From: Ectocarpus siliculosus
Lineage: Eukaryota > Sar > Phaeophyceae > Ectocarpales > Ectocarpaceae
Length of the DNA stretch: 64,000 nt
Assembly: GCA_000310025.1 (NCBI GenBank)
Contig: FN649734.1
Location: forward strand, 465,498-529,497
Direction of reading: 5' to 3'
Below are positions 1 through 58,959 of this stretch, piece by piece (positions within the stretch are counted from its first letter, which is position 1; each line of letters starts with the position of its first letter). The translations under genes were made by a program, and so were the position numbers. Below the pieces are notes generated by a model, which was given only the letters and a program-made list of their open reading frames with translations, made no database searches and was not told where the DNA came from.

Positions 1-13
1 GTGTAAACTCGTG

Positions 14-196
14 TACCGTAGGTGACACAAGATACCACCCCCCCCCCTGGATCGCTCGCTTGCTCCACGATGAGAACGAGTTAATAGCCAATCGATGTGT
101 TTTCGGAAAGCACTCGACGGACGGTTCCAACTCCCCCAATTTCTGCACAGTCACTCATTCTGCTGTGGAGAAATGGGACGTTGAAAGCAGTCCAGA
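14..196 (-). mobile_element. decayed MITE copy (inverted-repeat family, copy 1 of 3)
   Basis: This stretch is a diverged relative of the two intact elements at 43590-43811 and 49031-49251, in the orientation of the second. It keeps the terminal motif taccgta..tgacacaagata, the C-run after it, the ctccacgatgag stretch, the ctcgacg/cggttccaac core and the ctgctgtggagaaat segment. The right terminal repeat is reduced to ttgaaagcagtccag. It lies in an intron of the transporter gene. Assignment rests on side-by-side reading of the three copies; the exact right end is uncertain. Confidence 0.7.
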
Positions 197-389
197 AAAA
201 AGGAGCTTGAGAGCATGATTTTCAACCGTTACTGTTCTTCTCCCGTATCTCCTGTTTCGTTCGAGGGCCGACCGGAGGCGTGAGGTTTTTCGCAAGACGC
301 CAGGACGAGTTTCTTCAATGAGTGCGCAAGAATAATTCAGCCGACCTCGACCTTTCACCGTTATAATATTTTTGTTGATGTTGATTCAG

Positions 390-2189
390 GAGCGATTGAA
401 GGCCGCGTGCAAGCCCACGGTGCACGAAATGATGTTCTTCATGAACGCGTGGGCCCTGGCCATCTTGTCGGCCGCGGCGTACCTGTCGGGTCAGGCGGTG
501 GAGGGATACGCGTTCTGCTCGGCCAACCCTTCCGTCATGGTGAGAAACTAACTTCCGAGCCTGCATGACCTACTCTTGGCGACCCCAGCATACGACGTAC
601 TGAAGTAAGAGACTGAACGCCATTCTGACTAGCCTTTGTGTTTTTTCAGCTTTGTGGTTTACCCGCGTTGTTCCATAGCATTCGAGAAAGAGACTGAAAA
701 CTACCGATGTGCTTATGTTTTTTCTCCCAGCACTTGATTGTTTGTCCCCACTTCGTTCAATGACCTACGAGGTGTAGACTGACAAGTATTGTCAGCATTC
801 TTGTCTTCCCCGTCGTTATAAACGCGTAGCCAGGCTGCGGTTGGGTGTGATTGTGAGTTGGAGGGTAGGGGTGTGTTACGACCCGGACCGGAAAGTACAG
901 GCTGATTCTCTCTGCAATGATCGATCGCCTCAACCGCTTGTACCGGTGGCCACGTGAGATGTGGTGTCGTGTGGCTAGCTCAGAGCGGTGCAGTAGCATC
1001 GCCGCGTTCGTAGCCAGTCCCGTTTTCGTTTTCGGTTTGACTGGGAGGAGGAAACCAATACGATGCGTGCGGTACACGAGCCGAGACGGCAAGTGCCGTA
1101 CCCTTTTGAGGAAAAATCCCCCCCGTGAGTCTTGTGCACGAGGATGGTCGTGTCCCCCCCCCGGTCCTGCGTGTGTCTTTGCTTGCATCTCTGTATTCGG
1201 TGCGCCGTTGCTCTCGGGGATCGCCTGGTGGCGAATGTTACGGGGGTTTTTTGTCTTATCTGTACTGCGTGCACGTTGGTTGAAGTTCATGTGACACGAT
1301 GACGACACGACCGAGCGGCTGGCCCCTGAAACAGTCAGACTTTTTGCAATAGTGTGCATGCATGTTTTCCCATTGTCAAAAAATGCATAAACCGGCCCCC
1401 GTTTTTCACCACCTTTTCTCGCGGCACAACTATGTACTTGAACAGAGCTACGTGCTGGGCTTCTCCCTTGCATGCATGCTTTCCTATGTCAAATGCATTA
1501 CAACAACCGCCCCCCGTTTTTCACCACTTTTTCTCTCGGCACAACATATGTACGTGGACAGAGCTACGTGCTGGGCTTCTCCCTTGCCGCGGCCTTCGGG
1601 CAGAACTTCATCTACTACACCATCAGCAACTTCAACCCGCTGGTGTGCACGACGATCACCACCACGCGGAAGTTCTTCACGATCGTCTGCTCCGTTATCA
1701 TCTTCGGACACGCGATCGGCCCCAAGCAATGGGGGTAAGTCTGGGTCTGTCTGTGTCTCGCCGTTTGGAGTAGCGTGTGCAAGCGCGTGGTCAGTTCGCC
1801 CTTTCTCAATGCATGCCACTCCGGACGACCTGTACGCACCCCCTGTTGTTCTTGTGGAGAGAATGATGTAGTCATCGGTAACAGTGAGACAGAGCTCGGA
1901 GCCATGTATCAATCAGACCAAGAGCGCCCTGTAACACCCTCTTCCCGATTGTTCCGCGAAAAGCATTGCGGCGGCACGAACGTGTCCTGTCCTGTGATAC
2001 AACCTGCGTGTTGCCCAGCCTGGTCTCATCGATCGCGCTCTTGCTTGCCTTGTTCGCTTTGGCTTCGGCTGCGACTGTTTTCTGTTTTTTTTTTGCCCTC
2101 GCAGCGGAGTGGCGATGGTGTTCACCGGGATCGGCTACGAGATGAGGGGAAAGTATCAGCGGCACCACGCCAAGAACTTGAAGGCTTAA
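390..2189 (+). CDS. SLC35B1: SLC35B1-type ER nucleotide-sugar/ATP transporter, last three exons
   Basis: Exons are 390-539 (after ttgattcag, before gtgaga), 1562-1734 (after ggacag, before gtaagt) and 2105-2189 (after ccctcgcag, ending TAA). Phases agree across both introns. The joined peptide is the C-terminal part of the UAA/SLC35B family. It has MMFFMNAWALAILSAAAYLS, then a helix with AFGQNFIYYTISNFNPLVC, the highly conserved TTTRKFFTI motif, and the last helix GVAMVFTGIGYEM, ending in a short basic tail KYQRHHAKNLKA. Human SLC35B1 has the matching ALGQ...TTTRKFFTI block. Family members are multi-pass ER membrane proteins exchanging UDP-sugars or ATP/ADP; the substrate cannot be read here. 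The N-terminal exons lie left of the window. The tail lacks a canonical KKxx signal. The gene converges on CFAP46. Confidence 0.88.
1356..1587 (+). repeat. tandem duplication covering a splice acceptor and the start of an exon
   Basis: Two adjacent units of about 115 bp (about 1356-1469 and 1470-1587) share gcatgcatg, a ccgtttttcaccac stretch, ctcggcacaac or a close variant, and the sequence agctacgtgctgggcttctc. The last piece is the true beginning of the transporter exon at 1562. The upstream copy therefore carries a decoy acceptor (before 1446) and about 28 bp of duplicated exon. The offset of 116 bp between the acceptors is not a multiple of three, so use of the decoy would shift the frame. 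Confidence 0.85.
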
Positions 2190-4585
2190 AGGCTTAACAA
2201 CCTTGATGGTGCCGCGTTAGCGTTAGAGGCTTGAAACATGTTGATGATGATGATGGTGATGCCGCGTTCTCTTGTCGGGACTGGGCGGTGCCGTGCGGGC
2301 GACGCGGGGAGAGAAAGAGGAGGGAGGGACGGGAGGCGCAACGGACAGCAGCAGCGGCGAACGCGCCGAGTGCTGGGTTGACAGTGGTTGCGATGCTGGC
2401 GTTGGAGGGGGGAAACAGGACACAAACACGACGGGGCAGCAAGTGTTCAGTTGTCTGCTTTTTGGTCGGGTTTGTGGGGGCGTAGGGAGCGGCGGGGGAT
2501 TGAGAAAAATGGTGCCGCAGGCACCACCTATAGCACCCAACCCCAATCCTGCCTACCGCTCGATCTATGCTTTGATGTGGACCCCCATTGTGAGGAGGGA
2601 GGGGGGCTTGGCATATTTCGAGGCCATTATTCGGACGCTTTCTGACCTATACGCAGAGCTTGAGCCGGCCCCGATCGACAATCGTCGCTAGATTGCGGTG
2701 AGGTAGGCCCCCTTGTGGTCGTTTCTGTCTGTACATGTAGTAGCCCTTTCGTAGCTCTAACTAGCGGGTGTTTGTTCCAATTTTTAGAGGTTTGCCTCCG
2801 TCGGCAAGAATATGTAACCGGTGGAATCCCCGAGAAGCTCCTCCTGCCGATGCAGGAATAGAAGTGAGCTGCGGCTGTACTCGCGGGAGCCAGTAGTGGT
2901 AAAGGTCAAGGAGAAACCACCCCGGCGGCCAATTTTGCGACCTTTTGAGTTGGGCAAGAGACGAAGGGTAGAGGTTGCTGAGCCCGGCTGTAGCAACTAG
3001 CTGATGTTCAATTGCGTAGTTTTGACAGTTGTGTTTTTGGGTGGAGTCGGGTAAAAAACATGGAAGAAAACACAGGGGTAGTTTTTTTTTTTTTACCTCA
3101 TCAAAAGGCGGTCCGCAGCGCACAACGGCATGGCATGGCATCGATCAGTCGAAGCTATCCCTTGACTTCCGCGCGGTGTAGCCCAACGATTTGGTGAGCG
3201 ATGTGCTGCCAAAGCATCGCATGCCTCCGACGTGTCTCTAGAGTCAACATCTCAGAATAGCATCTTGCCTGTTTTGTGGTGCCTTCATGGGGGGAACAAC
3301 GATATGTCGTGTTCTTGGGCTTGCATTCCTGCCCAGAGGTGGTAGCTAGCGTCTACCAGAGGGAGTTTGGCGGCTGATGCGACAAGCTTCGCTTCAAAGC
3401 TTTATTGTTGTCCCAGTGTGCACACTACAGGTCAGACGATATGAAGTCCACATTATCGCGTCATGTCTGTGGCGGGCTTCGCCTTGGGGGCGCTGGAGTC
3501 GCTGGAAGCAACAATGTCCTTTCATTTGCACGTTGATTATTTGTCGCAACCCAACGACTGGCGGATCTATAATGGCGAGAATGATTCGGTGTGTTGCTGT
3601 AGACTAACTATAATTGGGTGCGTAGTCATCACATAGAGGAATAGGAAGAGAGAGGGCAGTGGAATCCACATTAGTATCAAGTCGATGAATCAAATTTTGT
3701 ACACGACTCCCATCTTGTTGCTGCCTGTTCGCTTTCTTCGTGACCATGCCTTGACTTTTTGCCCGCTGTTCGGGACAATTGTAGAATACAGGCGGAACGA
3801 GATCGCTTCGGTGCCGCTCGCTGCTGACGTTTTCGTGTTCCGCTGCGAGCCGTATGCGCCATGTCTGGCCGCACTTCAGAATCCATCGTTCTCACTTTGT
3901 ATATTGTAGTCACGCACAATGTTTCGTTCGCGGAGTATTGCGCAATCGCTTGGGGGTGGAAACGTGTGGATGTGTGTGTAGGGGTGCGTGCTACTTTCTT
4001 GGATGCTCTCTTCTCCCTGTCTCGGTAGCATTTGTTCCGTTTATCTCTTTTACCAGAACTATACCACTGAAATCCCAACCTGTTGGCCGTGGTGGAAAGA
4101 TCAGTACGTACAGAACATGTAGCCCTAGACATTTGGAGACATGACGAGTTCGTACCGGCAGAAAACGATCCAGCTCGTAAGGTAACCATGTGTGTGTGTT
4201 CGTCCCATCTATTCTGGCGCCAGCCTACAACAAACTCTCGGCGAATATATGTCACGTATCAGCCTGGGTCACGAACAGGAAGGTCTGTGTAGTGTGGGCC
4301 TGGAGCCAAAGGCTACCTTGGTTTTGGTGTCGGGTCACTCCGCTCCTCTTTCGAACGCAATTCCATGCGGCCGTTGCTCTTCTAAGCGCGAGCTCCTCAA
4401 TTTTCACAAGCATACGTTGTTACTGGAGTAAACTTGGCAGGCAGTCAATGCCACAGTGGGCTTCAAAATTCTAAAGAGAAGCAGCCGACTGTCACTCGGT
4501 CTCTTCCAAGCGCCGTACGCCGCGTCAGATTCCAGCCTCGGATTCACAACACATTTGGCTGACTAGACTAGATCCCCGGTTGTCG
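2190..4585. other. convergent 3' flank between transporter and CFAP46
   Basis: About 2.4 kb separates the transporter stop from the CFAP46 stop on the opposite strand. I see no reading frame with splice support or a recognisable family. It presumably holds the two 3' UTRs. There is a poly-T run near 3082 and nothing else notable. Confidence 0.5.
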
Positions 4586-7500
4586 TCATGGCCCGTACTT
4601 CAACGTCGGCAGCCCGTAGAGGACAGTGCAGAAGCGGGCTCTGGGCTTGATGCCGACGTCACCCCGAACGGCCGCCAACGCGTTCCCCAGGGCAAGGCCC
4701 TCTTCGCCCCAGCCCCGAAACAGCGAGCAAATGACCCTCCGGTTGTTGTGCAGGGTGACGGACCACATGTTGAGAACGACGGACTGGCACCTGGAAAACC
4801 ACGAAATTATGCCGGGACAACATTGTTCACTTTGAGGTTTGTCCTTTTTCGAAGTGCGCCCGCAATCTACTCCCACAGCCGCTTGTTGTTGTTCAATGGA
4901 GGTAGATACTTACCGACAGTGTCTATGAAATGTCCAGCATCATCGAGGGTATCGCTTGCTGCAGCCCAGTATTTGAGAATCCACGTATCGGGAACAGGGC
5001 TCTTTGCTCTCTTCGTTTTCTTCTTTGACCTACTAGAAGTACGCACAGTACCCGAGGAGGTTTTCTTCACTTGAGTTTCAGACGGACACGAGAAAGAACA
5101 ACGCGAAAGCTGTGCTTGAGTGTCTGGGAACGTGCTCATGTGCAGACGATGGGTCACCCTTCAAAGTCGCCACTCAAAGAACCGACACAATACTGTGCGT
5201 GATTGATTGTGTCTTGCTTTAATCGAAAGCGCTCAAGTGCAGAACAAGGACTACCCTTCAAATTCGCCAGTCAAAGAATCAACGCTGCTGCCGTAACTTA
5301 CCCCACAAGGGAGAAGAGAGCAGCCGTCTGAGCAGGCTCCTCCGCCTCCAGTTCCTCCGGCGACTTGAGCGTGTCCTGCTTGCTTTCCAGCCGCCGGCTA
5401 ACGCTGGTGTCCGCCCGATCTATAAGGATAGCGGCCTGGGGAAATGGATGGGGTGCGTTGGTGTGAGTTGTATGCCCAGACCATCTAGGCCATTGAGTTC
5501 ACACCCATCGGAATGAGCACATTGCTTGAACACGGTGTGATGGAAACATGGCTTGGAAAGCTTGTCGGGCCACCCGCTGACCGAAGTATCCACACCTTTT
5601 TGGCAATGCCACCAGAGCCGACCACCAAACCTTCTGGGCCGTCGTTGATATGCCGCAGGGCATGTATTCTTGAAGAATGCCCACAACAACAGCATGTAGC
5701 ATCTTGCCGTTGTGATGCACTCACGACTGACGGCTAATTAATGTAAGAGGGGATTCGATACCAACCCACTCCAAAATGTATCACCTTGCAGCTGGCGCTG
5801 AGCCCCACCAGGTGCTTCGGGGGAAGCTTTGACAGGCACCGGCCTGGGCCGTAGTAGACGAACCCTCCCTCACCGGCTGAACCGTTGCCGCTGATAAGTG
5901 ACTGCCACTCTCGCACACCTGGACAAAATACATACGAACAACGCCAACTTTTGCTTGTAGTCTACATGACTACAGTTTGCGCGGTAGAAACAAGATGGGT
6001 AGCCCGGGTAGGCTCGCCCTGTGCACAACTCAAGCGTTTCTGCGTTAAGGCAAACGAATAATGGGCCTGTTTCAGGCAATCTGTATATTATCTGGTTGCT
6101 TTATCCCATCCTTTCTCAGCCGCGATAGGTGCAGTCTACATAGTTCCAATTCTGTGCGCAAACATGGGGTGGCTCGAAAAACAGGCGATTCTTCGAGACA
6201 AAGAGCGGGGAAATAGCAAAACTGGATAGCTCGCTTTAGGTTCTAGGCACACATGTCGCCCGCCTTCCTGGTCGACAAGCTGGCATTGCAAACCTAAACG
6301 CGAGCCTTTTCGCGCCCACTCGTGCAGACCAGAATATCGCCCCGCTACATGTTGCAACCGCTGCAAGCAATGGGTAAACTCAACCAATTCTCTTTCCTCC
6401 CATTCTCTCCTTAAAACCGATGTGCGTGTCTTCACAGCATACAATAGTCTACATGCATGAAGGCCTTGCTTGGACGGGTGTACTCAATCTCGGCGTGTGG
6501 CCGAACGACTCTTGCCGTTCGTTGCCTACAAAGAAGGCCAATCTGATACATTTTCTGTCAAGGATTTGAGGTACATCGCCGCCGTAACCGGAAACGGGCG
6601 ATCGATCGCGTACCGGGTATGTGGTCGTCACCCCCCACCCCCTTCCATGCGGAGACCTTAACGCTTCCTCCGCTTGTGCCCTTTTCCTTGCCACCCCCAC
6701 CGCCATCTTGTCCTAGAAACGAACACCGTGCGAGCATAAGTGAAGCGAAATCGAGGCTGAACTATCGACCAAAACAATACTGGCATGTCTGAGAAACCTG
6801 GACGTACATCCGCATCGCGTAGCAAGTCGATGAAGTGATTGCAACAAAATGCAGGAGGGAGGGAGAGCATCGCACAAGTCGGGTGAAGAGTATCCACGAC
6901 CTGGATGAGAAGATTATGCTCGGAGAGGACCTAGAAGGCGCGAATATTGCGTTGGGGCTTGGGGTTTGCTTGTAAACGCCCGCGGTTGGTGCGTGGGCAC
7001 ATTTTGAGTTTGATCCAAAATCTATCCACCTACACCCGTGGCTTTGGGTGGGCAACGGGCTGCAGGAAAAGGGAAAAATGGGAACCTTTTTCACACCCAT
7101 TCTCACCTACGCACTCTCGCAGGACCTTCAAAATGGGCAGCCTTCCGCCCTCTTCCGGTTGGCCTTCGGTGGAGTTCTGTTCCTTACCCCCTCCGCCCTT
7201 CTTCCCTTTGGAAGTAGCAGCACGGCTAGGTGTGCTGACCTTGGCGGCTTCCACGGGTGGTGGTGTAGGGGGAGACACCCCCGGGTCTTCCGATAGGGGG
7301 TCGGCGACGTAACGCATGTGCGCGTTGCTGATGACGTCGTGCCCTGGAGTAGCAGCGTTCGTCGTCGCCTTGAGCCTAATGCGTTGTATGACAGTCATCC
7401 GATCAGGCAAGTGACGCTTTCATTACTAGTGCCGTGCACCATTTTAGGTGAGATTCAATGGATAATTTGATTTGAGGGTCAACGTTGACTTGCGCGTTGG

Positions 7501-9154
7501 GATGCACAGCTTCTCTCACTCACGGTCTCGAACTTGTTTCAGGGTGTTGTAAATGGGCCTTGACAATAGCGACATCTTTGAATATAGTAGCCTTGAAAGG
7601 GCTCTTCCTGCGTAGACAGGCCGGACATCTCGGATAACCCGCAGTGTACGATTCCACACTTGCGAAACTGGAGAAGAAGGAATCGAGGAAATCTTTCCAC
7701 AGCGAGCGACGGTCTGGTGCAAACATCTTCTATCATATCGAAAAGGCGAATGCAGCCGAGAAAGCACTCTGAGCGACAATTCCCAGCGAACGTGACAAAC
7801 AGGTGCACCGGAAACAAACTCCCCAACCTGTGGCACAGCATGTGGAGGCTGAAGTCGCGAGAGACGCTCGAAATCCCGCCCACCGCCGCACATGCCTCCA
7901 CGGGGAGCTTCTCCAGCTTTTCATCCATCAGGAGCACCAACGACAGTTTCTCCGCCCTGCAGCGGTCTAGAAATGGTGCGAGTCCCTGATTCGGTGCGTT
8001 GAGAGATTCGCGGCGAGATCGTCGGGGATGTATCGGAGTTTGATAGCTTTCCTGCTGGGCGGCGCCAATTTGTACCGTACCTGTCGCGTTCCCAGGGTTT
8101 TAATCTTGGCTGCCGCCGTCAATGCGTTGAAACTCGACTTGGATTGGTATGTTCGAAACGTACTAGTGCCGAAGCATTCCAGGTTTAGATAGCCCATTGC
8201 CAAGATTGCGGTGACAGGCCCGTGAAAATTACATGGACTTCGCGCTCGATCCTGTATTTGTCGTCCCTTGGCCAAACACACTCGAGCTGGGTTTGTTCAT
8301 CTGCGAACTCACCCCCTCGACACCCTCCGCCCAAAGCGGGGACAAGGCGGCCTGTGTCTCTGCAATGATTAATTCCAGTTCGGACTCGCAATCTGCCGCC
8401 GCGAGACGGCGCGGAGGAAGAGCAACGGTTGCGGCTGAAGACGATGACGGGACCTTTGAGGGAGTGACTGTCTTTTCGACATCGGTCTTGCTGAGATCGG
8501 TGTTGCTGCTGTTTGTGGTGCCGTGCTTGCTGTTGTGGTAATGACGGTGGTCGTCGTTGGTGTCGGTCTCCGTGTCGACGTAGTCGCCTTTCTTGCCTTC
8601 CTCGTCGCATTTCTCCAGGCAGTACCGCTTCACCGAACCTGATTTCGATCAACAACGGTTTGAGCCGTCCACGAAATATTTTTTTCTAGGGGTAGCATTG
8701 CAAGGTGTTAGCCATTCCCGTCGATCGGCGGGACGAGACATGCAACACATTGGAGAGGCATAGGGTAGCAAACCCTAGGCAACACTCGCGTGCAACATGG
8801 GTTGTTCTGGCCCTGTTTATGGGAACACGCGTTCGAGCGTGAACATTGTACCATTCGTAGGAACTGCAACTTTATTATTTACGGTCGGTCGGTTTTCTAC
8901 TTTTGCTCACTCGTAGACCCCGACCTTCGGCGGCGTCTTGGGCTCCATCCGAACTCACCTCCAAACGCCTCCATCCGTGATCCCAGCTTTGCCAGCTTCC
9001 GAACCTCGGTGGGTTTCATCTCGTGCCGCCAAACGACAGCACCATCTCCAGCTGCACTGCTGGTGCCTGCCTCTGTTCCACTAGCAGGCTCGACCGCCAG
9101 CGACGGTACGGGCGCGTATCCCGAGGCGTAGAGTGTAGTGCCATCGGGGGACAC
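4586..9154 (-). CDS. CFAP46: CFAP46 exons 44 to last: C-terminal CHAT-like domain
   Basis: Exons are 8959-9154, 8313-8638, about 7828-7985, 7107-7343, 5785-5918, 5302-5435 and 4586-4790. One or more short exons between 5919 and 7106 are not resolved. The order is: VSPDGTTLYASG; CESELELIIAETQAALSPLW; LSLVLLMDEKLEKLPVEA; ISSVSRDFSLHMLCHR; HMRYVADP; EGGFVYYGPGRCL; AAILIDRADTS; CQSVVLNMWSVTLHNNRRVI; EEGLALGNALAAVR; CTVLYGLP. This tracks the strand order of CHAT domains (PDG..LPFEAL, HG, LSACETG, GA..VVASLW, FVLYG), but with Tyr where the catalytic His would be and Ala where the Cys would be. An Asp/His-rich linker with poly-Ser lies in the 8313-8638 exon. Confidence 0.88.
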
Positions 9155-12100
9155 CTAATGCCGAGGGCGGCGAGCGGAAAGTACGACTTGACGAGGTGTT
9201 TTTTTCTTATGCCGCCGGTCAATGTGCTTTTCTGAAAACACAATTGTATGTAGCCTCTGCAAGCGTGAGCGCATGTAGTCGGTTGCGAATGAGACATCGC
9301 GCTCTCGACGGCACGATGGTTGGGCGTACCGGGGTGCTCTTACCTGTAGCGATAGAACTCCCAGCCCCTCGGGCAGACCGCGCAGCGACGACGCCCAAGG
9401 GGTAGATTCACCGGCACACTCTAGCCGTCTCCACCCCTCCAGGTAGGCCGACAGCATTTGCTCAGAAGCTTCGGCGGGCGGGAAATCGCCTGTGCTCGAA
9501 GCGGTGCCCTCGCCCGCTGTTCCGCTCGCGGATGCCCCGGTCTCCGACGGGGAGGGCACAAGGAAGGGATCACACTTGTCGAGATTGTGCAATCCTCTCA
9601 GAAGCCCTGGAGCCGGCGCAAAGGCGATGAGAGAAGGGCGGGGGGGGGGGGAGGGGAGGTTGAAAATATCCGTTTGCCATTGGAACAACAACAACAATGC
9701 TCAAAGTTGCGTGCCGTAGACCGTATTGCGATTTCTGCGTTTTTGTGGCTGTTGTTGTACCTTGCGCCGCAGATACCCGGTCCATGAACAGCCGGTATCG
9801 GTTGGACTGTGGAAGGGCTCCTCGCAGAAGACGGAGCATCCTCCCTCGCGCTCGGCAACTCTGAAACAACCACACAATCACGTCGACACACCCAAAGGGT
9901 GAATCAGTTTGTAGGGGATTTGGCTGATCGGAGACAAATCTCAGCCTCAGCGCCGGCGTGTGGTGTGTGGTGTGTGTTTGGCCGGAAACGAGACCAAAAA
10001 AGACAACCTCCGTTCACTGCAAACGTTCGACATTGAATGCTTCATTGACCTGGTGAAGCATGAGGGCGGCGGCCGCAGCGGAGGCGTCGTCGCCGCCCAG
10101 CATCTCCGCCAGGGCGAACGCCGCCACACCGGCCGCGTCCCAGCGCTTTGCAGCCACGGCCGCCTCCATGGCCTGCTCGAGCTTCCACCTCGCCTGTTCC
10201 CGTAGGTCGAACCCTTCCTGTTGTGAATAATGCACACAACGTCAACAACAGCAACCATGCCAATCTCAACATGACAATATCTTAGGATGGCCGTTCTGCG
10301 AGAACGGCGTCGTTGCATGCTGCCCCAGCTTACTCTTTCCTGAAATTGTGGAACGACTCTAGACTGCACAAGACGACACAGAAGGGCGCGGTGAGGATGT
10401 GAAATTTATTCGTACGTGGAGGCGATTCTTGCGTCTACCGTCCCTGAGACGACCACACCAACCAAACACCTGCATGGGCAGAACGGGCGCGGGTTCTTTT
10501 TCTTCTTGTGCTTGAGCTGCTGCTGCTGCAGCAGCTGCGGCCGCTGCGCCTCCTTTGCCGCCCTTGGCTTCCTTTCCACCTTTCCCTGCTCCTTTTCCAC
10601 CTGTCTCACGTCCAGGTGCATCCATGCGTGCGAAAGTTCGTAGATACGATCGCATGGGCAACTTGAGATACCACAAGGTGAAACAGGAACGAACAGATGT
10701 CAAGCAACAACATCAGAGTAGCGACCGACGTGAGGAATCATTTTCCCTCCGCCGTCGCCGCCGTGTGTTGCTGCACATCTATCGTGCGGACACGGACACC
10801 ACAAGCGCAACGCAATCCCATCGCACGCGGTCGGCCGAATCCCCTCGCCCGTCGCCCATTCCTCGCCCCGTGTTGACGTATTGGCGCACTGGAATGTCGG
10901 ATTCCAAACGAGCTGTCGAGTAGGCTGCGCACCAAACCTATTGGCACGCGTGGTTTAGCGCCAGAGGACAATGCGAAGCGGTATATCCAATGCCCTCGAC
11001 ATTCATGAAATACATCGATACCTTCTTCGGCCGAAACGATCACACCCGAGAAGGATTCATACCGTATCCTACTCCGGTGAACCATCGCTCAGCCTGCCGT
11101 GTTCTCTACAATCTGCACAACTGCTATCACCAATTGTGCGCGGATCACCTTTCGCGGGGACGGGCTCCGCTTGCACTGGAGGCGTTGGAGGTCGTGGGGG
11201 TGGGGGCCGCGGGACCCACGCTCCATCAGATAGTCCAGCTGGGAGCAAGGAAGATAAGACAGGTGGGGATTTTGATCGACGGGACGCACGCGATAGAGTG
11301 CAGTGGTGCGCAATGCTTAGCACCTCAGCAGTACAAGCCATAGACGCCAACATGTTGCCGGTAAAGGGAACCTTGCGAGAGTCGAAGAATCCTCACCGCA
11401 GAGTGATGGCCATGACGCTCCTCGTGTTCACACATTCAACACAACTGATTCTCGTTTAGCTGGGATCCACACGACTACGAGAACGAGTGCGGTCGGTTCT
11501 CGCCGTGGGACCGGCCGAGATGGTTCAGTCTACGCATCGAGTATGGGGCAAGCGTTTCGAGCATGTACAGTACTCGTGAAAGGCGGCAGCAAACACAGAT
11601 GTGATGAGCTCAAGGACGACATACCTCGCGAAGCCAGCAGCGCGAGCGCGGACCCTTCCCACGCCAAGGTCAGCGGCAGCAATCCGGGATTGGTTGTCAC
11701 TCCGCTCTTGCCCCCAGAGGAAGATGACAGACTGCAGCGCTCTCTCGCCATCTCGGCCAGAGCTAACGCCTGTTCGATCTGTGGCAGTGACATCTCTTCC
11801 ACCGTAGGGTGTCCCAATGGCCTGGAAGCTTCCATATACCTTTGTCGGTGATTGATGTGAAAATGAGGTGAGGGGCGGGAATGTGAACAACCCTCGTCCG
11901 CGCGAAAAGAAAATCCAAGCAGTGTTCAGGCAGTTGTCCTCCATTCGTTTGTTTGGAGATGGTTCCATCCGTTCCATCATTTTCAACTTGTTGCGCGGAT
12001 AGTGAAACGAACGAGAACCATTCCAAGCACATTCAGGTTGCTTCGTGGGCTTGACCTACCACATGGTTGACACAGGTGCAGTCTGTCATTGCCGGGGTAC

Positions 12101-37754: not shown

Positions 37755-40506
37755 CATACCTCGTTTAGGACATCGCGAGCTGCTTCCGCCTTGTCTCTCT
37801 CCCTCAACGCCAGGGTCTCTGCGTGCTGCAAGCCGAGCGCGGCTTTGGCCGCCGCCGCGTTAGCGTCTCCGTTGTCCCCGAGGGCAAGCGAAACCGAGGT
37901 CAGAAGGGCGCACCGCCACCGCAGGTCTGCATCCTCGGTAGCTTCCAGTGCGTCAGAAAACCTAAGGTGATCGCGTTCGTTTACGTGGCGTCAATGGTCA
38001 AAGCCGCATAGACGTTTGCACACCGGTCATAGCGTAGACATGCTTGCACACCAACATGCGCCGGAATGATCAATCATTAAGGTGACATTTCAACTATTCT
38101 TCTGGAAGACGAAGGTAGCAATCGAACAACAGATTTCCCCCCCCGGTCTCCGTGGTCCTGAGAACGGCCCTGAGAACGGCGCCGAGAACGATGACTCCAA
38201 ACAACATGACCAGTTTGTACGCTACCTTGCGAGCTCCTTGGCGTGATGGCCGGCCCGCCCGGCCGTGAGAGCGGGCCTCAGAACGTTCCACGCGTGAACG
38301 GAGACGTTGTGGACCAGGAACGCGTATCGCGGACCCCCTTCTATGGCGACATCCAGAGCCTTGGAGAAGCCGTCACGACAGGAAAAGACATTGTGAACGT
38401 GCTGAGGCTGGCTGATGCACAACAGCATCGCCAAGGCCTACATCGCGACACGCATTGGCTGGAAGCATTTCCAACAAGAACAACACAGGGAAGCAATCGT
38501 ACAAACTACTCGCCTATCGTGGGTGTGCCGTTTGCCTTTCATAGGTTCGGGCGTGCGCTGATGTCCTCTGTATGCATACTCTCTAGGGTACGACAAATCC
38601 TGAATCGTGTCCGAGTAGGCAACATGAGGTTGACGCTGTTCGGTAGGAGGAACACAGCGTCGACCAGGTGCACTCGAACGCCTGCTGTGCGTGCAAAAGC
38701 GTGGCCCGGAAAGAAATTGAACCTCCTTTTGCCACCAATCAACAACAAACTAGTCCATTATGCGCGATTCGTCTTACGGTATCGGAAAGGAGTGGCAAGG
38801 GTCCAACAATCAAAGTATAACTTGATGCACTTTGTTCCTTGTGCCACAGGAATCCGCGAATCCTCTATTAGCACAGAGGGAAAAAAGACCGCTTTTCAAA
38901 GCATATGGAACTATGTGCCCCCCGAGGGAACGAAGAGCGGCGTGGCTTCTGCACACCCTCAAGACCGTATCTCCATTCGGCAATGGCCGTTCCATACAAT
39001 GGCGTGAAGCCCAGTGACATGTCCATTTTTCCCCTGTGAAAGTTCTGCCCACTTGACCAATGGCGACTATTTAGGACGCCCTGCGAGTGGTCTGTCCCAA
39101 CGCTAGCTGATGTAGGCGCCAAGATCTTACCTGTGTGAGGTATCCTACCGCACGGGAGCGGCGTTGGGTGGCCTCCGCGCCCACGAGACCGTCCCTTCCG
39201 ATCGAGTTGCTCACCACCAGAGCCTGCACACGAGCGTTGGAAAAAAAACGTGCCAACAAAGCCGGCAGCAGAACCACGCACCGAAGATCTTTGCTTCGAG
39301 TTGTGGAACACCGTAACTCTGTCTCGACGAATCGCGCCCTAACTCTGATTTGTCAAGCATACGCCGGCAATCGACAAACGCAACTCAGTCTACGTACCGC
39401 ACAGAAGTGGTTTCTCGATGGGCACCGCACTGCTGAGTGCATGCAGGCTGAGAGCACCACCTTTCAATACCTTCACAAACAGAGCGCGGCAGAAGAATTG
39501 ATCTCTCGCACCCCCCCCATCGAGGAAGAACTCGTGACAAGCCTCCCTGGCCAAATTGAACTCTCCGTTCTTCACGGCTGTCTCAGCGGCAAGCACCAGT
39601 AGCTCGGGCGACCGGAGATGGTTCCCTTCCCCTGGCACGTTGTTCTAGCGGGAGAGACATATAAACACAGACGTACAGTGGTGACGGGCCCAGAGGGAAC
39701 ATGGACGCTGTGAAGAGCAGGTCGCTATTGCCAGTATAGCGGCTAGAGTCGAGCTGCAGGGGTGCCACGCGATGTTGCGGTTGCTATGCACGGCATGTTG
39801 CTACACCGAGCCGCCAATGCTGTAGGAATATCGTATAAGACTGGAAGCTGGGTTTACCTACTCTTGACACGGTTTACATCACTTGTGTCTTTTAGCCGGA
39901 GGGGGGGGGGGAGGGATCTATTCGAACCACGGGCACCTTTCTCATGCTGCCAGACTGGATATTGGTTCGTCACGCAGGCGCGGGTCATCGTTACGGCTGT
40001 ATACTGCCTCATTCCTCCTCTATCCCCTTGCGTGACTTCTGTATCACATCCTACTGTAAATCAACCAGAGGCTAGGCACACAGAAACCGTAAGGGCAGCC
40101 GACTCTTTCATTTGCCACGCACAAGATTTGGACCCTCGAGAAATCTTTCAAATATTCTCCCAACGCCCGTGAATTACCCCTATATCAACGCTACAGAACA
40201 ATTGAGATGAACCGGCAAACGCCGCCGGCTGCAGTGCACTCCTCCTGTGAACTGATAAAACACCAACTCTTTTAGTGTATGCAAGGTTGTTTGTCTGACA
40301 CCTCTCCCTCCCCTCAAATACATGGTATTTCAGTTGCGCACCTGTGTCCTAGCCTTTCGAAGCAGGCGAAACGCAGCCTCGAGGCCCCGTTTCCCCTGCT
40401 GGGAGAGCAGAAGCTTGTGCGACGGATCACCCCCTGGCTCGCCTGCGGTTTCCACGTCTCGCACGCTCCTTGCGAAGGCCGCCCGCAGCTGAAGGTCTAG
40501 CGCCAT
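4586..40506 (-). CDS. CFAP46: CFAP46, central-pair (C1d) TPR protein, complete gene of about 50 exons
   Basis: Start ATG is at 40504-40506 and stop TGA at 4586-4588. I could place about 50 exons totalling roughly 10.4 kb (about 3,450 aa). The human protein is about 2,700 aa, and the excess is low-complexity linker. Diagnostic blocks, in order, are: PRYAFLVHNVSVHAWNVLRP; RLRAQLHLE followed by VAKCEMDSDFLAKA; GAVYVYNFHMP; RLWNVALPLAD; LYVLLFECYSDRSEWKQGL; VSPDGTTLYASG; LEKLPVEA followed by ISSVSRDFSLHMLCHR; HMRYVADP; GGFVYYGPGRCL; CQSVVLNMWSVTL; VLYGLP at the very end. In Chlamydomonas FAP46 works with FAP54, FAP74 and FAP221 in the C1d projection of the axoneme, controlling beat frequency. The gene implies motile 9+2 flagella. 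One small region (5919-7106) and a few exon edges are unresolved. The exon blocks follow as separate entries. Confidence 0.92.
9344..11842 (-). CDS. CFAP46: CFAP46 exons 39-43, proline-rich and poly-alanine linkers
   Basis: Exons are 11625 to about 11842, 11149-11238, 10470-10600, 10018-10217 and 9344-9596. Exon 39 has LPQIEQALALAEMARERCSL. Exon 40 is a 90 bp proline-rich linker (WVPRPPPPRPPTPPVQAEP), with a strong acceptor at cttgctcccag. Exon 41 is a Gly/Lys then poly-Ala linker. Exon 42 returns to helix with WKLEQAMEAAVAAKRWDAAG. Exon 43 ends RGLPEGLGVLSLQ, matching the family strand just before the C-terminal domain. A plus-strand frame opposite exon 40 looks protein-like but is only its antisense. 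Confidence 0.82.
12220..15680 (-). CDS. CFAP46: CFAP46 exons 34-38, including the largest exon
   Basis: Exons are 15558-15680, 14619-14700, 13963-14132, 13409-13598 and about 12220-13036. Exon 34 reads LEAQAALCDAQGHPDRALPC. Exon 35 is a small exon (KMAIAIGSMMRKMGTGDAKI) found because exons 34 and 36 do not join in phase without it. Exon 37 is Ser/Thr-rich. The 0.8 kb exon 38 has VRILCDAADKLRPLGNHPAL and FLEEAAKCLAEAREVLSALA, then a long Ala/Lys/Gly linker (about 12480-12700), then VQLEEACVRAMLGRAKG and FGLGHRYAACIHDLLLFA. The donor of exon 38 is uncertain within a few tens of bases. Confidence 0.82.
15991..19036 (-). CDS. CFAP46: CFAP46 exons 30-33
   Basis: Exons are 18809-19036, about 18020-18319, about 16879-17406 and 15991-16479. 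Exon 30 is a Ser/Gly/Arg-rich linker. Exon 31 has HLETAVRTLAMLARGGGCCS and DVLMQGYYFVGRMAGMVEET. Exon 32 carries the family motif LHLRDWAYWRLEP, then VISTTTMEKAPLLFHHLLDL and PLALAELVARLCLGPARR. Exon 33 ends with DRKVWAMLATEAVQLGECRA. The junction between exons 31 and 32 has two phase-compatible solutions. Confidence 0.85.
19371..23152 (-). CDS. CFAP46: CFAP46 exons 25-29
   Basis: Exons are 22509-23152 (644 bp, one of the largest), 21227-21443, 20655-20756, 19710-19801 and 19371-19485. Exon 25 runs from LLTAASALSGAGPPAEELVE through a charged linker to AELELAGEIWCRLGKERLA and LWRWLAVGEGLWGQAVASA. Exon 26 has FATLASSSPVTLDVAKRLWN. Exon 27 has LYVLLFECYSDRSEWKQGLA. Exon 28 has SWCTLARSASDPKQQLSAYL. 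Exon 29 has LDCLVEMGEWAMGRGLAQSG. These are the best conserved TPR-like repeats of CFAP46, and phases join exactly. Confidence 0.9.
23791..25700 (-). CDS. CFAP46: CFAP46 exons 21-24
   Basis: Exons are 25623-25700, 25192-25288, 24669-24800 and 23791-23987. Peptides are LHHLATPNLEEALEACVVAL, ETALLCSVYEALARILSSAF, KAEELCQRAITALDRPD followed by a Gly/Ala/Thr linker, and a poly-Ala/poly-Gly linker running into VSELKGLVEVRTACQAKRAG. Every junction keeps phase (0,1,1,0). Exon 22 was identified by this phase chain as well as its content. Confidence 0.82.
26343..26483 (+). repeat. (CT)n microsatellite followed by a C homopolymer
   Basis: About 120 bp of tct/ctg dinucleotide-type repeat ends in an uninterrupted run of about 22 C. 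It lies in the CFAP46 intron just after the exon ending at 26530. On the coding (minus) strand it is a GA tract, so it is not a polypyrimidine tract for that gene. Confidence 0.95.
26530..29906 (-). CDS. CFAP46: CFAP46 exons 16-20
   Basis: Exons are 29852-29906, 28872 to about 29071, 27998-28223, 27244-27532 and 26530-26657. Exon 18 begins with LVRIWFALLELAWDQSQ and exon 19 with AQFMLGETFVEELRLAHTVE. Exon 20 ends with GAVYVYNFHMP, all matching the central TPR array of the family. Exon 17 is almost entirely a Glu/Gln/Ala/Ser linker and its 5' edge is the least certain in this block. The frame was fixed by its donor, where AAA-AG plus G-CTT rejoins exon 18. Confidence 0.82.
30483..34237 (-). 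CDS. CFAP46: CFAP46 exons 11-15, with acidic and serine-rich linkers
   Basis: Exons are 33959-34237, 33212-33347, 32217-32503, 31024-31080 and 30483-30775, all phase-consistent. Exon 11 holds VAVLVEMYARVAAGLGEE followed by a Gly/Asp-rich insert. Exon 13 holds SFRARLEFLGAELAAQGM, then a serine run, then RLADRVEALKRVERSL. Exon 14 is only 57 bp (RLRAQLHLE) and runs straight into VAKCEMDSDFLAKAASHVEK of exon 15, a well conserved CFAP46 junction. The gap between exons 13 and 14 (31081-32216) shows no further exon that is needed for phase. Confidence 0.85.
34928..37478 (-). CDS. CFAP46: CFAP46 exons 6-10
   Basis: Exons are 37376-37478, about 36589-36759 (or ending 36550), about 36207-36376, 35633-35741 and 34928-35016. 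Readable peptides are VAAAQATIRKIEEAASSAAE, EKMSAALSAALVSRAAAEAD, LNPLVKGAAEAAALSERTWL and LLDTLQTQTSEDIRRSALML. All are helical and TPR-like. Exons 6, 9 and 10 have good acceptors (ctccccggcag, tctctggcag, accccccag) and exact phase. For the exon near 36300 two frames are open; the one running into TGG before gtacaa is preferred because only it joins exon 9 in phase. Confidence 0.75.
37669..37755 (+). repeat. CAG/AGC triplet repeat beside a CFAP46 donor
   Basis: Imperfect then perfect cag/agc triplets fill the first about 90 bp of the intron after the CFAP46 exon ending at 37760. The repeat begins within a few bases of the donor gtatgt and stays in frame with it. Retention of the intron would therefore append an alanine run. 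Confidence 0.9.
37760..40506 (-). CDS. CFAP46: CFAP46 exons 1-5: N-terminus and first TPR-like helices
   Basis: Exons are 40342-40506, 39471-39644, 39131-39223, 38226-38359 and 37760-37961, with phases 0,0,0,2,0 that join without a break. The start is the ATG giving MALDLQLRAAFARSV, which matches where other CFAP46 proteins begin. Exon 2 has SPELLVLAAETAVKNGEFN and FFCRALFVK, the helix pair that opens the family. Exon 4 has the family hallmark PRYAFLVHNVSVHAWNVLRP. Exon 5 continues with DADLRWRCALLTSVSLALG. The exon 2 acceptor at ctctcccgctag was chosen over a nearer gtgccag because only it keeps phase. Confidence 0.88.
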
Positions 40507-55949: not shown

Positions 55950-57336
55950 ATGACCACCTCCACGGGAAGGCCGAGGCCATTCCTGAACGGCGTCTTCAGA
56001 ACAGCCTGCAACTACTGCGTGAGGTGCGTGTTCGGATGCAGGCTGCACCCACCCTCCGGTAGTCCTTCATGAGTAGGTTAGCAATCCTCACTGGGGCGCA
56101 ATGGCATTTAGTTGTAATTGTTGTGGTGGAGTTTTGTTTTCCCTTTTCTACTGTGGGACTTCATCACCATGTTTGGTCGAATCAACTGATGCCCGCCCAC
56201 ATCATATCGTAAGTGTCGTTTTCGTTTTTCTCTCTACTTTCCTTTTCGTTTCCGTTGTCGTAGACACGTACCCCAAGCGGTTGTACCCGCCCTAAACCCC
56301 CGAACGTCGTCTCACTGCTTTGCCTTCCTTACCCCTTCTCCTCCCGACGAGCAGTAGCAAGCGGGGTTGCAGTGGCGGGGAGCCGTGCGACCAGTGCGAG
56401 AAGAGGGGCAAGCCCTGCATCTACGCGCAGCGCCGTAAGAGCGGACCCCGCAGCCGCCCGGCCTCCGGCCGCTCGAGTAAGGGCCGTTCCCGCACCAAGG
56501 CTCGACGAGAGAGCCGCGCCGCCGCCGCCGCCGCCGCCGCTGCCGCTGCCGCCGCCGCCGCCGCTCCGGTTGAGTCTCCGTCGCCGGTCATTGCGAGGTC
56601 TCCTCCGTCCCCGGCTGCTTCCGGGCTTGCTGGAGAGGACAGGGTTGGTGTGGTTGCTGGGTCTTGGGACGGCGGCGAGGCGGCAGCGGAGGTGACGGAG
56701 GTCGAGCGGCGCCGCGGTAGCATCGGCGAGGACGCCTGGGAGAGGGAGCGGCGGAGGCTGGGCTTCACCACCCACGACGACGACCACCACCTACAGCAGG
56801 AGCAACAACAGCAATCGCCCTACTATCAGCCCGCCGGGGGGAAGCGGAAGCCCCCCGACCTGGTCATCCCGCGGCCCCACCGGACTGACCCCGGTTCGAC
56901 CGCGAACCCCCTCCTCGTGAGGTCATCGCCGGCGCCGCCGGTGCCGCCGGCGCCCCCGTCGGGAAGGCTCGAGGTGCCGATGCCGCCGCGGTCGGCCCAC
57001 GTTCTGTCGCCGCCGCAGGAGGGAACGGCAGGGAGCTTCGGGAGCGGCGGCGATGGATCCTTCTCTTCTTCCTCCTCCTCCTCCTCTTCCGCCTCGAGCT
57101 CTTTCTCTTCCTCTTCGACTCCCTCCCCGTTCTTCACCAGGCAGGCGCCGTCCTCTCAGCCGAGCGACGAGGGGAACAACAAGCGGACGCGGGTGTCATC
57201 GCTCACCCCGCCCACCCCGCGGACTTCCCTCGCGTCTCCCCCGCCGCTCTCCCTGACGCCCTCATCCTCCTGCTCGGCCCTGCCTCCCCGAGGCTGCATC
57301 TCGTCCGTCCTGGCTTCGAGGTGTACGTCCGTAGAC

Positions 57337-57371
<35 letters not shown>

Positions 57372-58959
57372 GAGCTTAGGTCCCGTTCGCCGCGGGCGAT
57401 CGGCTGCTGCCGCCTCTTCTTCCGCGGGAGGTTGTTCTCAATCATCGTCCAGAACGGCCCCGGAGTCGCCATCGCTGTCGTCGTCGTCTTCGAGCCGCGG
57501 CCGCGGTTCCGGTCAAATCGTCTTCGGTGCCAGGCGGTCGCCAGCGCAGCCGGCCTCGGAGAGGGGTGGGTGGGTGGAGGCTGAAGCTGCGGCGCCCCAC
57601 CCGGTGTTGCACAGCGTGTCTCCGGGCTCGGCCATGTCGCCGCCGGAGTCGAGCGCCGGCGAAGGGTCTGCGGGAATGCAGGCGTCGTCGTCCTACGCCA
57701 TGGTGGGGTCGTCGTCTTGGGCCGCCACCGCTGCGGCCGCCGTCACCGCCCCTGCCGCTGCTTTGCCACGCCTGGGTGCGGGTTACGCCGGGGGAGACTT
57801 CGATGACATGAAGACGTTGTACGAACCGCTGCTGCTTCGGAGGGAGGAGGACAAGCGCCGCCAGCTCCTCGAGGAGCACCGGTGGGAGCAGGAGCGGGAG
57901 CAGCAGAGGGAAGAGCTCAAACATGAGCGGCTCCTTCGGAGCCACCAGGAGCAGGAGCAGCAGCAGCAGCACCTGCGCCAAGACCAGCTGCTGTCGAGGA
58001 GGCAGATGTCCCTGGGGGCCCTGCTAATGGCCGACGACGACGAGCTCGGCGAGTCGTTCAAGCAGTGCCACATCACCGACGACAGCAACGGTCCGTCGGG
58101 GAGCCACATCACCGACGACAGCAACGGCCCATCGAGGAGCGTGTCCGGCGACCTGGTTCCCGTGGAAGCCCTACGCCGCGTTGTTAGCGACACCGCCCAG
58201 TCGTCATCAGCGCCGGCTGCGGCTTCGCTGGCGCGAACCATCTCTCCCGCCGAGTTGCCACGCGACGGCCCGGGCGGCGTGGAGGGCTACGCTTCATCGT
58301 CGTCTACCTCCACCGCCTGGTACGCCGGGGGGGGGTGCGGCGGCGTAGGCGGCGGCGGCGGCGGCGGGATGCAGCTAGAGGCAGGGGATGGGGACAAGAA
58401 CTTCTCGCTGCGGCCGCCGTCACCGCCGCACCACCGGGTCTCGGGCATGACGGAGGAGGCCCTGCCATCGTCGCCGTGGGGAGAAGGCGGGGCGCCGGTG
58501 GCGGCGGCAGCAGAAGGGTCGTGGGGGCGAGGGCGACCGCTTCTCCCCCGCGCCGTTCCCAACGGCAACGCCGAGGCTGCCGCGACCGCTCGGCCGGACT
58601 GCGCGGCCCTGGCGAACATGCGCACGCCGCTAACCCGCGAGGCTTCCCTCATGCGAGCCGTGGAGGCGTCTGCCGCAACCTCCGGCGGCTATGGCGGCGG
58701 CGGCAAGCAGGTGATGATCCTCGAGAACGGCGACATGGACGACATCCGCGCCCCCCTGCTCCGGGAGGCCTCCCTCATGCGGGCCATGGAGGCCGTGAAC
58801 TCCTTCACCACCGGGGATGACGGAGGCGTCGGCGACTGCGGGGAAGACACGGCTGCGGCTGCGGCGGAACTCATCTCCAGCGCCGGTGGCGCAGACGACG
58901 GTCTCGGAGACGTGTTCTGCGAGACGTCGGCTGCGGCGCTCGCTACCTCCACGTGGTGA
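55950..58959 (+). CDS. Zn2Cys6 (GAL4-type) transcription factor
   Basis: Two exons, 55950-56023 and 56355-58959, give 892 aa. The intron splits a serine codon inside the DNA-binding domain. The joined N-terminus reads ACNYCVSSKRGC then SGGEPCDQCEKRGKPCIY. Cys20, 23, 30, 36, 39 and 46 form a perfect CX2CX6CX5CX2CX6C binuclear zinc cluster followed by basic residues. The rest looks disordered: poly-Ala (about residues 79-97), Pro/Ser-rich stretches, poly-Gly runs, and a charged Gln/Glu/Arg coiled coil at about 516-576 (EEDKRRQLLEEHRWEQEREQ). There is a duplicated HITDDSNGPS at about 598 and 610. Near the C-terminus two copies of REASLMRA occur (about 785 and 824). No fungal-type middle homology region is evident. 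The ATG is the first one giving the cluster at the extreme N-terminus, as is usual for the family. Confidence 0.88.

Follow-up and report, generated by a model that had tools for sequence, protein, structure and literature searches.

The window analysed here is a stretch of 64,000 nucleotides from Ectocarpus siliculosus (contig FN649734.1, positions 465,498 to 529,497), and the subject of this report is the C-terminal domain encoded by a gene at its left end. By sequence comparison the gene is CFAP46, whose product is a C1d subunit of the central apparatus of cilia; it lies on the minus strand and spans at least 4.6 to 39.6 kb. When the C-terminal window protein was searched against PDB sequences with phmmer, mouse CFAP46 (9ijj_A) was the sole match at an expect value (E) <=10, with an E of 2.1e-11. 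A profile of the window and mouse sequences then found Chlamydomonas FAP46 (7n6g_1N; E 2.7e-10). Both alignments lie near the chain ends, at 2331-2570 of 2641 in 9ijj_A and at 2467-2697 of 2784 in 7n6g_1N; these two chains and Chlamydomonas 7sqc were taken as CFAP46/FAP46 by the depositors' names. A search of the alga's own 189-Mb genome with the domain gave strong matches to its own exons only (5/13 matches at E<=10), and the other 8/13 had an E of 0.0475 or worse. At the opposite end of the gene, two open reading frames (ORFs) matched the family TPR_CFAP46_N:

38225..39644, minus strand: CFAP46 N-terminal TPR exons (PF25439 TPR_CFAP46_N), two ORFs at 39393-39644 and 38225-38437

The two ORFs cover consecutive parts of the profile, each below the 27-bit cut-off: positions 45-100 for 39393-39644 (E 1.8e-5, 25.0 bits) and positions 107-155 for 38225-38437 (E 6.4e-6, 26.4 bits). 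An earlier reading made from the letters alone (the sequence-only reading) had named the gene CFAP46. This identity is upheld by the matches to named CFAP46/FAP46 chains at their C-termini and by the TPR_CFAP46_N exons on the same strand. The placing of the C-terminal domain at the close of a protein whose N-terminus belongs to a TPR family likewise agrees with the PF25439 matches, sub-cut-off as they are.

The 3' end of the gene was rebuilt by hand as eight exons (9606-4586, minus strand) that join in a single open frame. All seven introns have GT-AG borders, and the frame closes with a stop codon at 4588-4586; the splices were computed from the DNA, without transcript support. The exons, and the two codons that fall in the catalytic columns discussed below, are as follows:

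9344..9606, minus strand: CFAP46 exon U, GT-AG, in frame, upstream of the protease-like domain
8959..9154, minus strand: CFAP46 exon V, GT-AG, in frame
8313..8638, minus strand: CFAP46 exon W, GT-AG, in frame, a linker of low complexity for the most part
7828..7985, minus strand: exon X, the first strand of the domain and the LPVEA...VSRDFSL motif, separase-like
7107..7375, minus strand: exon Y, the YVADP strand (matching separase YVLNP/YVLDP), then a low-complexity insert
5785..5918, minus strand: CFAP46 exon, in the eight-exon model and in the CFAP46/separase alignments
5845..5847, minus strand: catalytic-His column, Pro (CCA), of GPG
5302..5435, minus strand: CFAP46 exon, in the eight-exon model and in the CFAP46/separase alignments
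5412..5414, minus strand: catalytic-Cys column, Ala (GCG)
4586..4790, minus strand: last CFAP46 exon, in the BLASTP comparison with the alga's own separase and in the C-terminal half compared with hhalign

The alignments with mouse 2164-2215 and with Chlamydomonas 2223-2342 run from exon U onward. Exons U, V and W (9606 to 8313) belong to CFAP46 but precede the separase-like domain, whose first strand begins at about 7937 and which ends at 4586. The peptides quoted by the sequence-only reading were all found on the minus strand within 4586-9154, in the order claimed. LSLVLLMDEKLEKLPVEA and VSRDFSLHMLCHR lie in exon 7985-7828, GGFVYYGPGR in exon 5918-5785 and AAILIDRADTS in exon 5435-5302; LVGCQSVVLNMWSVTLHNN crosses the 5302/4790 splice, and EGLALGNALAAVR and VLYGLP lie in exon 4790-4586. 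That their order goes beyond chance was borne out by Pfam, BLASTP and profile tests, with shuffled and reversed controls.

The domains of the window, mouse and Chlamydomonas proteins were scanned separately against 24,736 Pfam families, and matches were considered to E 10. Peptidase_C50 (PF03568), the separase family, was the top family for all three, with an E of 7e-5 for the window, 2.6e-6 for mouse and 5.8e-5 for Chlamydomonas. The match begins at profile positions 213-216 in each orthologue; in the window it covers positions 213-280, over exons X and Y. Other families on the CFAP46 pieces had an E of 0.06 or worse, and none of the three reversed sequences (0/3) matched any Pfam family.

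Direct comparison gave a second line of evidence. The alga's own genome encodes a separase (G000:C2:8412461-8414317, E 3.7e-58) with the catalytic His and Cys, and BLASTP of the window domain against it aligned residues 227-300 of 306 with an E of 2e-4 (single comparison), including VLYGLP opposite VCYGIP. With hhalign, a three-row CFAP46 profile and a three-row separase profile gave an alignment of 235 columns that opens at the first strand and closes at the final YG(L/I)P (probability 97.6, score 86). In 198 column shuffles the maximum score was 27.7 (mean 13.3, standard deviation 2.7), and the reversed profile scored 26.8. The two halves also matched their separase counterparts on their own: the first half scored 43.9 (shuffle maximum 19.1, n=199) and the C-terminal half 45.3 (shuffle maximum 20.4, n=200). 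When the three-row CFAP46 profile (A3) was searched against 177,635 PDB sequences, the first globular match other than CFAP46 was the separase of C. thermophilum (E 0.0064).

The strands of separase (PF03568; human 7nj1, C. thermophilum 5fc2 and the alga's own copy) are collinear with those of the CFAP46 domain. Common to both are the motifs VLxxD..L..LP(W/V/L)E, VSR..S and FxYxG.G, a C-x8-C strand and GxxxVVxNxW. Where separase has YVLNP or YVLDP, CFAP46 has YVADP, FVVDP or VIVDP, and the D-P of this strand is invariant in the window, mouse and Chlamydomonas proteins. Of the CFAP46 sequences, only that of the window showed the separase-type final (V/L)xYG(L/I)P, the mouse and Chlamydomonas tails not being recovered. 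The two proteins differ in other places. The WDVTDxDIDR stretch of separase is not preserved in the window and mouse CFAP46, the Chlamydomonas alignment stopping before it, and the insert that follows the Cys strand exceeds that of separase by about 12 residues in CFAP46. Low-complexity inserts between the first and the catalytic strands occur in both the alga's own separase (L001) and CFAP46 (7375-7107), on opposite sides of the YVxDP strand.

The active-site columns were read from a joint alignment of three CFAP46 and four separase sequences. The His of GHG is present in 4/4 separases and is replaced in CFAP46 by Pro (window), Met (mouse) and Val (Chlamydomonas). The Cys, also present in 4/4 separases, is Ala in the window and Thr in mouse and remains Cys in Chlamydomonas FAP46, in the motif DRCNT (7n6g_1N, aligned 2467-2697). 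Compared with separase, CFAP46 therefore lacks the catalytic His in 3/3 orthologues and the Cys in 2/3, and since Chlamydomonas retains the Cys, the loss of His alone is common to the three. All three CFAP46 sequences have an Asp two residues ahead of the Cys column. The sequence-only reading had described a lost protease site, with Tyr for His and Ala for Cys. Its Ala fits the alignment (codon 5414-5412), but the His column is the Pro of GPG (codon 5847-5845) and not a Tyr. The loss of the site holds for the window, with Pro and Ala in the two columns, and the loss of His for all three orthologues in which the columns were checked; a general loss of Cys does not hold, given the Cys of Chlamydomonas.

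The same reading had called the domain a degenerate CHAT domain. Our results do place the domain, in degenerate form, within the separase/CHAT group (clan CD), but the nearest family is separase and not CHAT. CHAT (PF12770; TPR-CHAT/Csx29 of Craspase) probably shares its fold group and TPR-plus-protease layout with CFAP46. Separase itself matches CHAT, both in Pfam (the alga's own copy, E 5.5e-6) and by hhalign against five bacterial CHAT sequences (score 94, probability 97.9). Against the same set CFAP46 was weakly positive, with a probability of 11 and a score of 30 over 57 columns, which is above the shuffle maximum of 18.9 (n=200); the match keeps register around the GARSVVxxLW strand. However, PF12770 was matched by 0/7 CFAP46 pieces at E<=10, and a full-length match was obtained to separase only, with a score of 86 compared with 30. 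At the active-site motifs of CHAT (HG and SACxTG) the window has GPG and IDRADT, and neither LSACETG nor HG is present in it. An unrooted, small tree was built from 162 columns of two blocks, with three CFAP46 sequences, four separases and six CHAT sequences (the five bacterial and one viral-contig, eukaryotic CHAT being unsampled). It separated three clades, with support of 98.5/99 for CFAP46, 83.8/76 for separase and 99.7/100 for CHAT, so that CFAP46 stood apart from CHAT and did not branch inside the separases. We consider it improbable that CFAP46 is a TPR-CHAT protein nearer to bacterial or fungal CHAT than to separase, and CHAT was rejected as the nearest family on the Pfam counts and hhalign scores. 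Because CFAP46 forms its own clade in the tree, its domain would be a separate inactive family adjoining separase, and not separase proper.

Several results weigh against a kinship with separase, and some of them bear on the alternative that a Rossmann-like alpha/beta domain resembles separase by chance or composition. The Peptidase_C50 scores are modest (22.6 bits for the window, 27.3 for mouse and 22.9 for Chlamydomonas), and since all three lie below the curated cut-off of 27.8, Pfam would not itself annotate the domain. The C-terminal halves of the window and mouse domains, scanned alone, gave 0/2 matches to Peptidase_C50, which places the Pfam signal chiefly in the first half, and BLASTP against the own separase left that first half unaligned. 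Separase was unlisted at E<=10 with profiles A1 (two rows) and A10 (the tail), it was unlisted in the single-sequence search of the own genome, and phmmer of the window protein against PDB sequences returned CFAP46 alone. In the A3 search a pentatricopeptide repeat chain (E 1.5e-4) ranked above separase; we read this match as an artefact, a sum of eight matches of <2 bits each. The alignments are shallow, with three rows each, the His/Cys segment falls outside the C-terminal-half hhalign alignment, and the region ahead of the domain did not match that of separase (probability 0.2). Because the C-terminal-half alignment lacks that segment, the His and Cys columns are assigned from the full-length alignment together with spacing. 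Structure searches were made with related models, both poor by predicted local distance difference test (pLDDT). A separase domain modelled from contig L006 (pLDDT 41.8) placed separase structures at Foldseek ranks 1-9, and a CHAT domain modelled from L007 (pLDDT 44.4) placed TPR-CHAT structures at ranks 3-14; no CFAP46 chain was among the best 50 rows in any of the four Foldseek lists from these models. On the other side, the three orthologues scanned apart, the reversed and shuffled controls, the two halves in the profile comparison and the same-genome BLASTP match all agree. A chance likeness was rejected by the shuffles of the whole domain and of the halves and by the reversed sequences, and we judge it highly improbable. 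We think it just as hard to credit that certain lineages have kept a functional protease here. The Cys of Chlamydomonas DRCNT does align with the separase nucleophile, but in place of the partner His that protein has Val, and mouse and the window have Met and Pro; the separase GCSS is DRCN in Chlamydomonas, and the window and mouse proteins have no Cys. An active protease was rejected on these columns (P/M/V for His, A/T/C for Cys).

Taken together, our alignments show a homology to separase that is collinear over the whole window domain, and a catalytic His lost in 3/3 orthologues aligned. Very probably, the last ~283 residues of CFAP46 are an inactive separase-like (Peptidase C50) pseudoprotease that serves as a structural or binding module in C1d. 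A structural or binding module is the best reading because the protease domain has been kept in three lineages without the His. In this proposal the domain would retain the clan CD fold, would not cleave proteins, and would act as a docking or structural module fixing CFAP46 to its C1d neighbours. Separase holds securin; by analogy, the dead substrate groove of CFAP46 may perhaps hold a peptide of a partner. The presence of the domain in mouse, Chlamydomonas and the window suggests that it was already part of CFAP46 in an early eukaryotic ancestor.

Separase carries a large alpha-solenoid ahead of its protease domain, and a large alpha-solenoid in front of the domain is probably a further likeness of CFAP46 to it. 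A more speculative and rather doubtful extension is an ancient sister relationship between the CFAP46 and separase genes, each encoding an alpha-solenoid with a C50-type domain, with a split before the last eukaryotic common ancestor. One would have retained its protease, for the release of chromosomes and centrioles; the other would have lost it and turned into a scaffold of the cilium, with a C1d partner peptide bound in its dead groove as securin is by separase. The absence of a CFAP46-separase match in the stretch ahead of the domain, given above, bears on this possibility too.

The proposed role can be set beside what has been described for C1d. According to the accessible text of PMC9113940, FAP221 clusters FAP46, FAP54, FAP297 and CAM1 in Chlamydomonas C1d, and that of PMC12297659 connects mouse CFAP46 to SPAG6, LRRC43 and CFAP74. 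The words 'separase', 'protease', 'CHAT' and 'TPR' have 0 occurrences in the accessible text of these two papers. In the available part of a 2021 review (PMC7999657), Chlamydomonas FAP46 is a 289 kDa C1d protein, flagella of fap46 mutants have no C1d and show asynchronous beating at lower frequency, and the table entry for FAP46 domains is '-'. Within the literature searched, no paper was found that joins CFAP46 with 'CHAT domain' or that joins pseudoprotease, cilia and separase. Among the matches listed, the sole paper mentioning both CFAP46 and separase was PMC12766463, where, in the portion available, the two are unrelated to each other. For CFAP46 and caspase, caspase appears merely in a reference in the accessible part of the one paper checked. 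We found no literature statement of a protease-like or separase-like CFAP46 domain, and earlier notice is possible, for example in bioRxiv, InterPro or AlphaFold DB. TTC40, which we take to be the former name of CFAP46, was not found among the matches listed in the literature search.

A separase-like domain in CFAP46 would represent a pseudoprotease family conserved between green algae and mammals, and would tie a ciliary scaffold protein to a cell-division protease family, separase being the protease that lets chromosomes separate. Human CFAP46 variants have been linked to primary ciliary dyskinesia, as the title of a paper within a reference list indicates. The domain would offer a concrete candidate binding site and could give meaning to C-terminal patient variants.

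Some observations concern other sequences. Contig L006, the source of the separase model, is filed as a Euryarchaeota metagenome-assembled genome and encodes at 2-4705 a 1567-aa eukaryote-like separase in a single open frame; it is probably a misbinned picoeukaryote contig, its origin being guessed. In the window, exons of a UAA-type nucleotide-sugar transporter lie on the plus strand at 336-2189, facing the 3' end of CFAP46 in convergent orientation. PF08449 matched 1442-1738 (E 1.9e-14) and 336-551 (E 0.0071), and did not match 1998-2189. An 887-aa open frame on the plus strand at 56296-58956 carries a Zn(II)2Cys6-like cluster (PF00172, E 0.0017, sub-cut-off).

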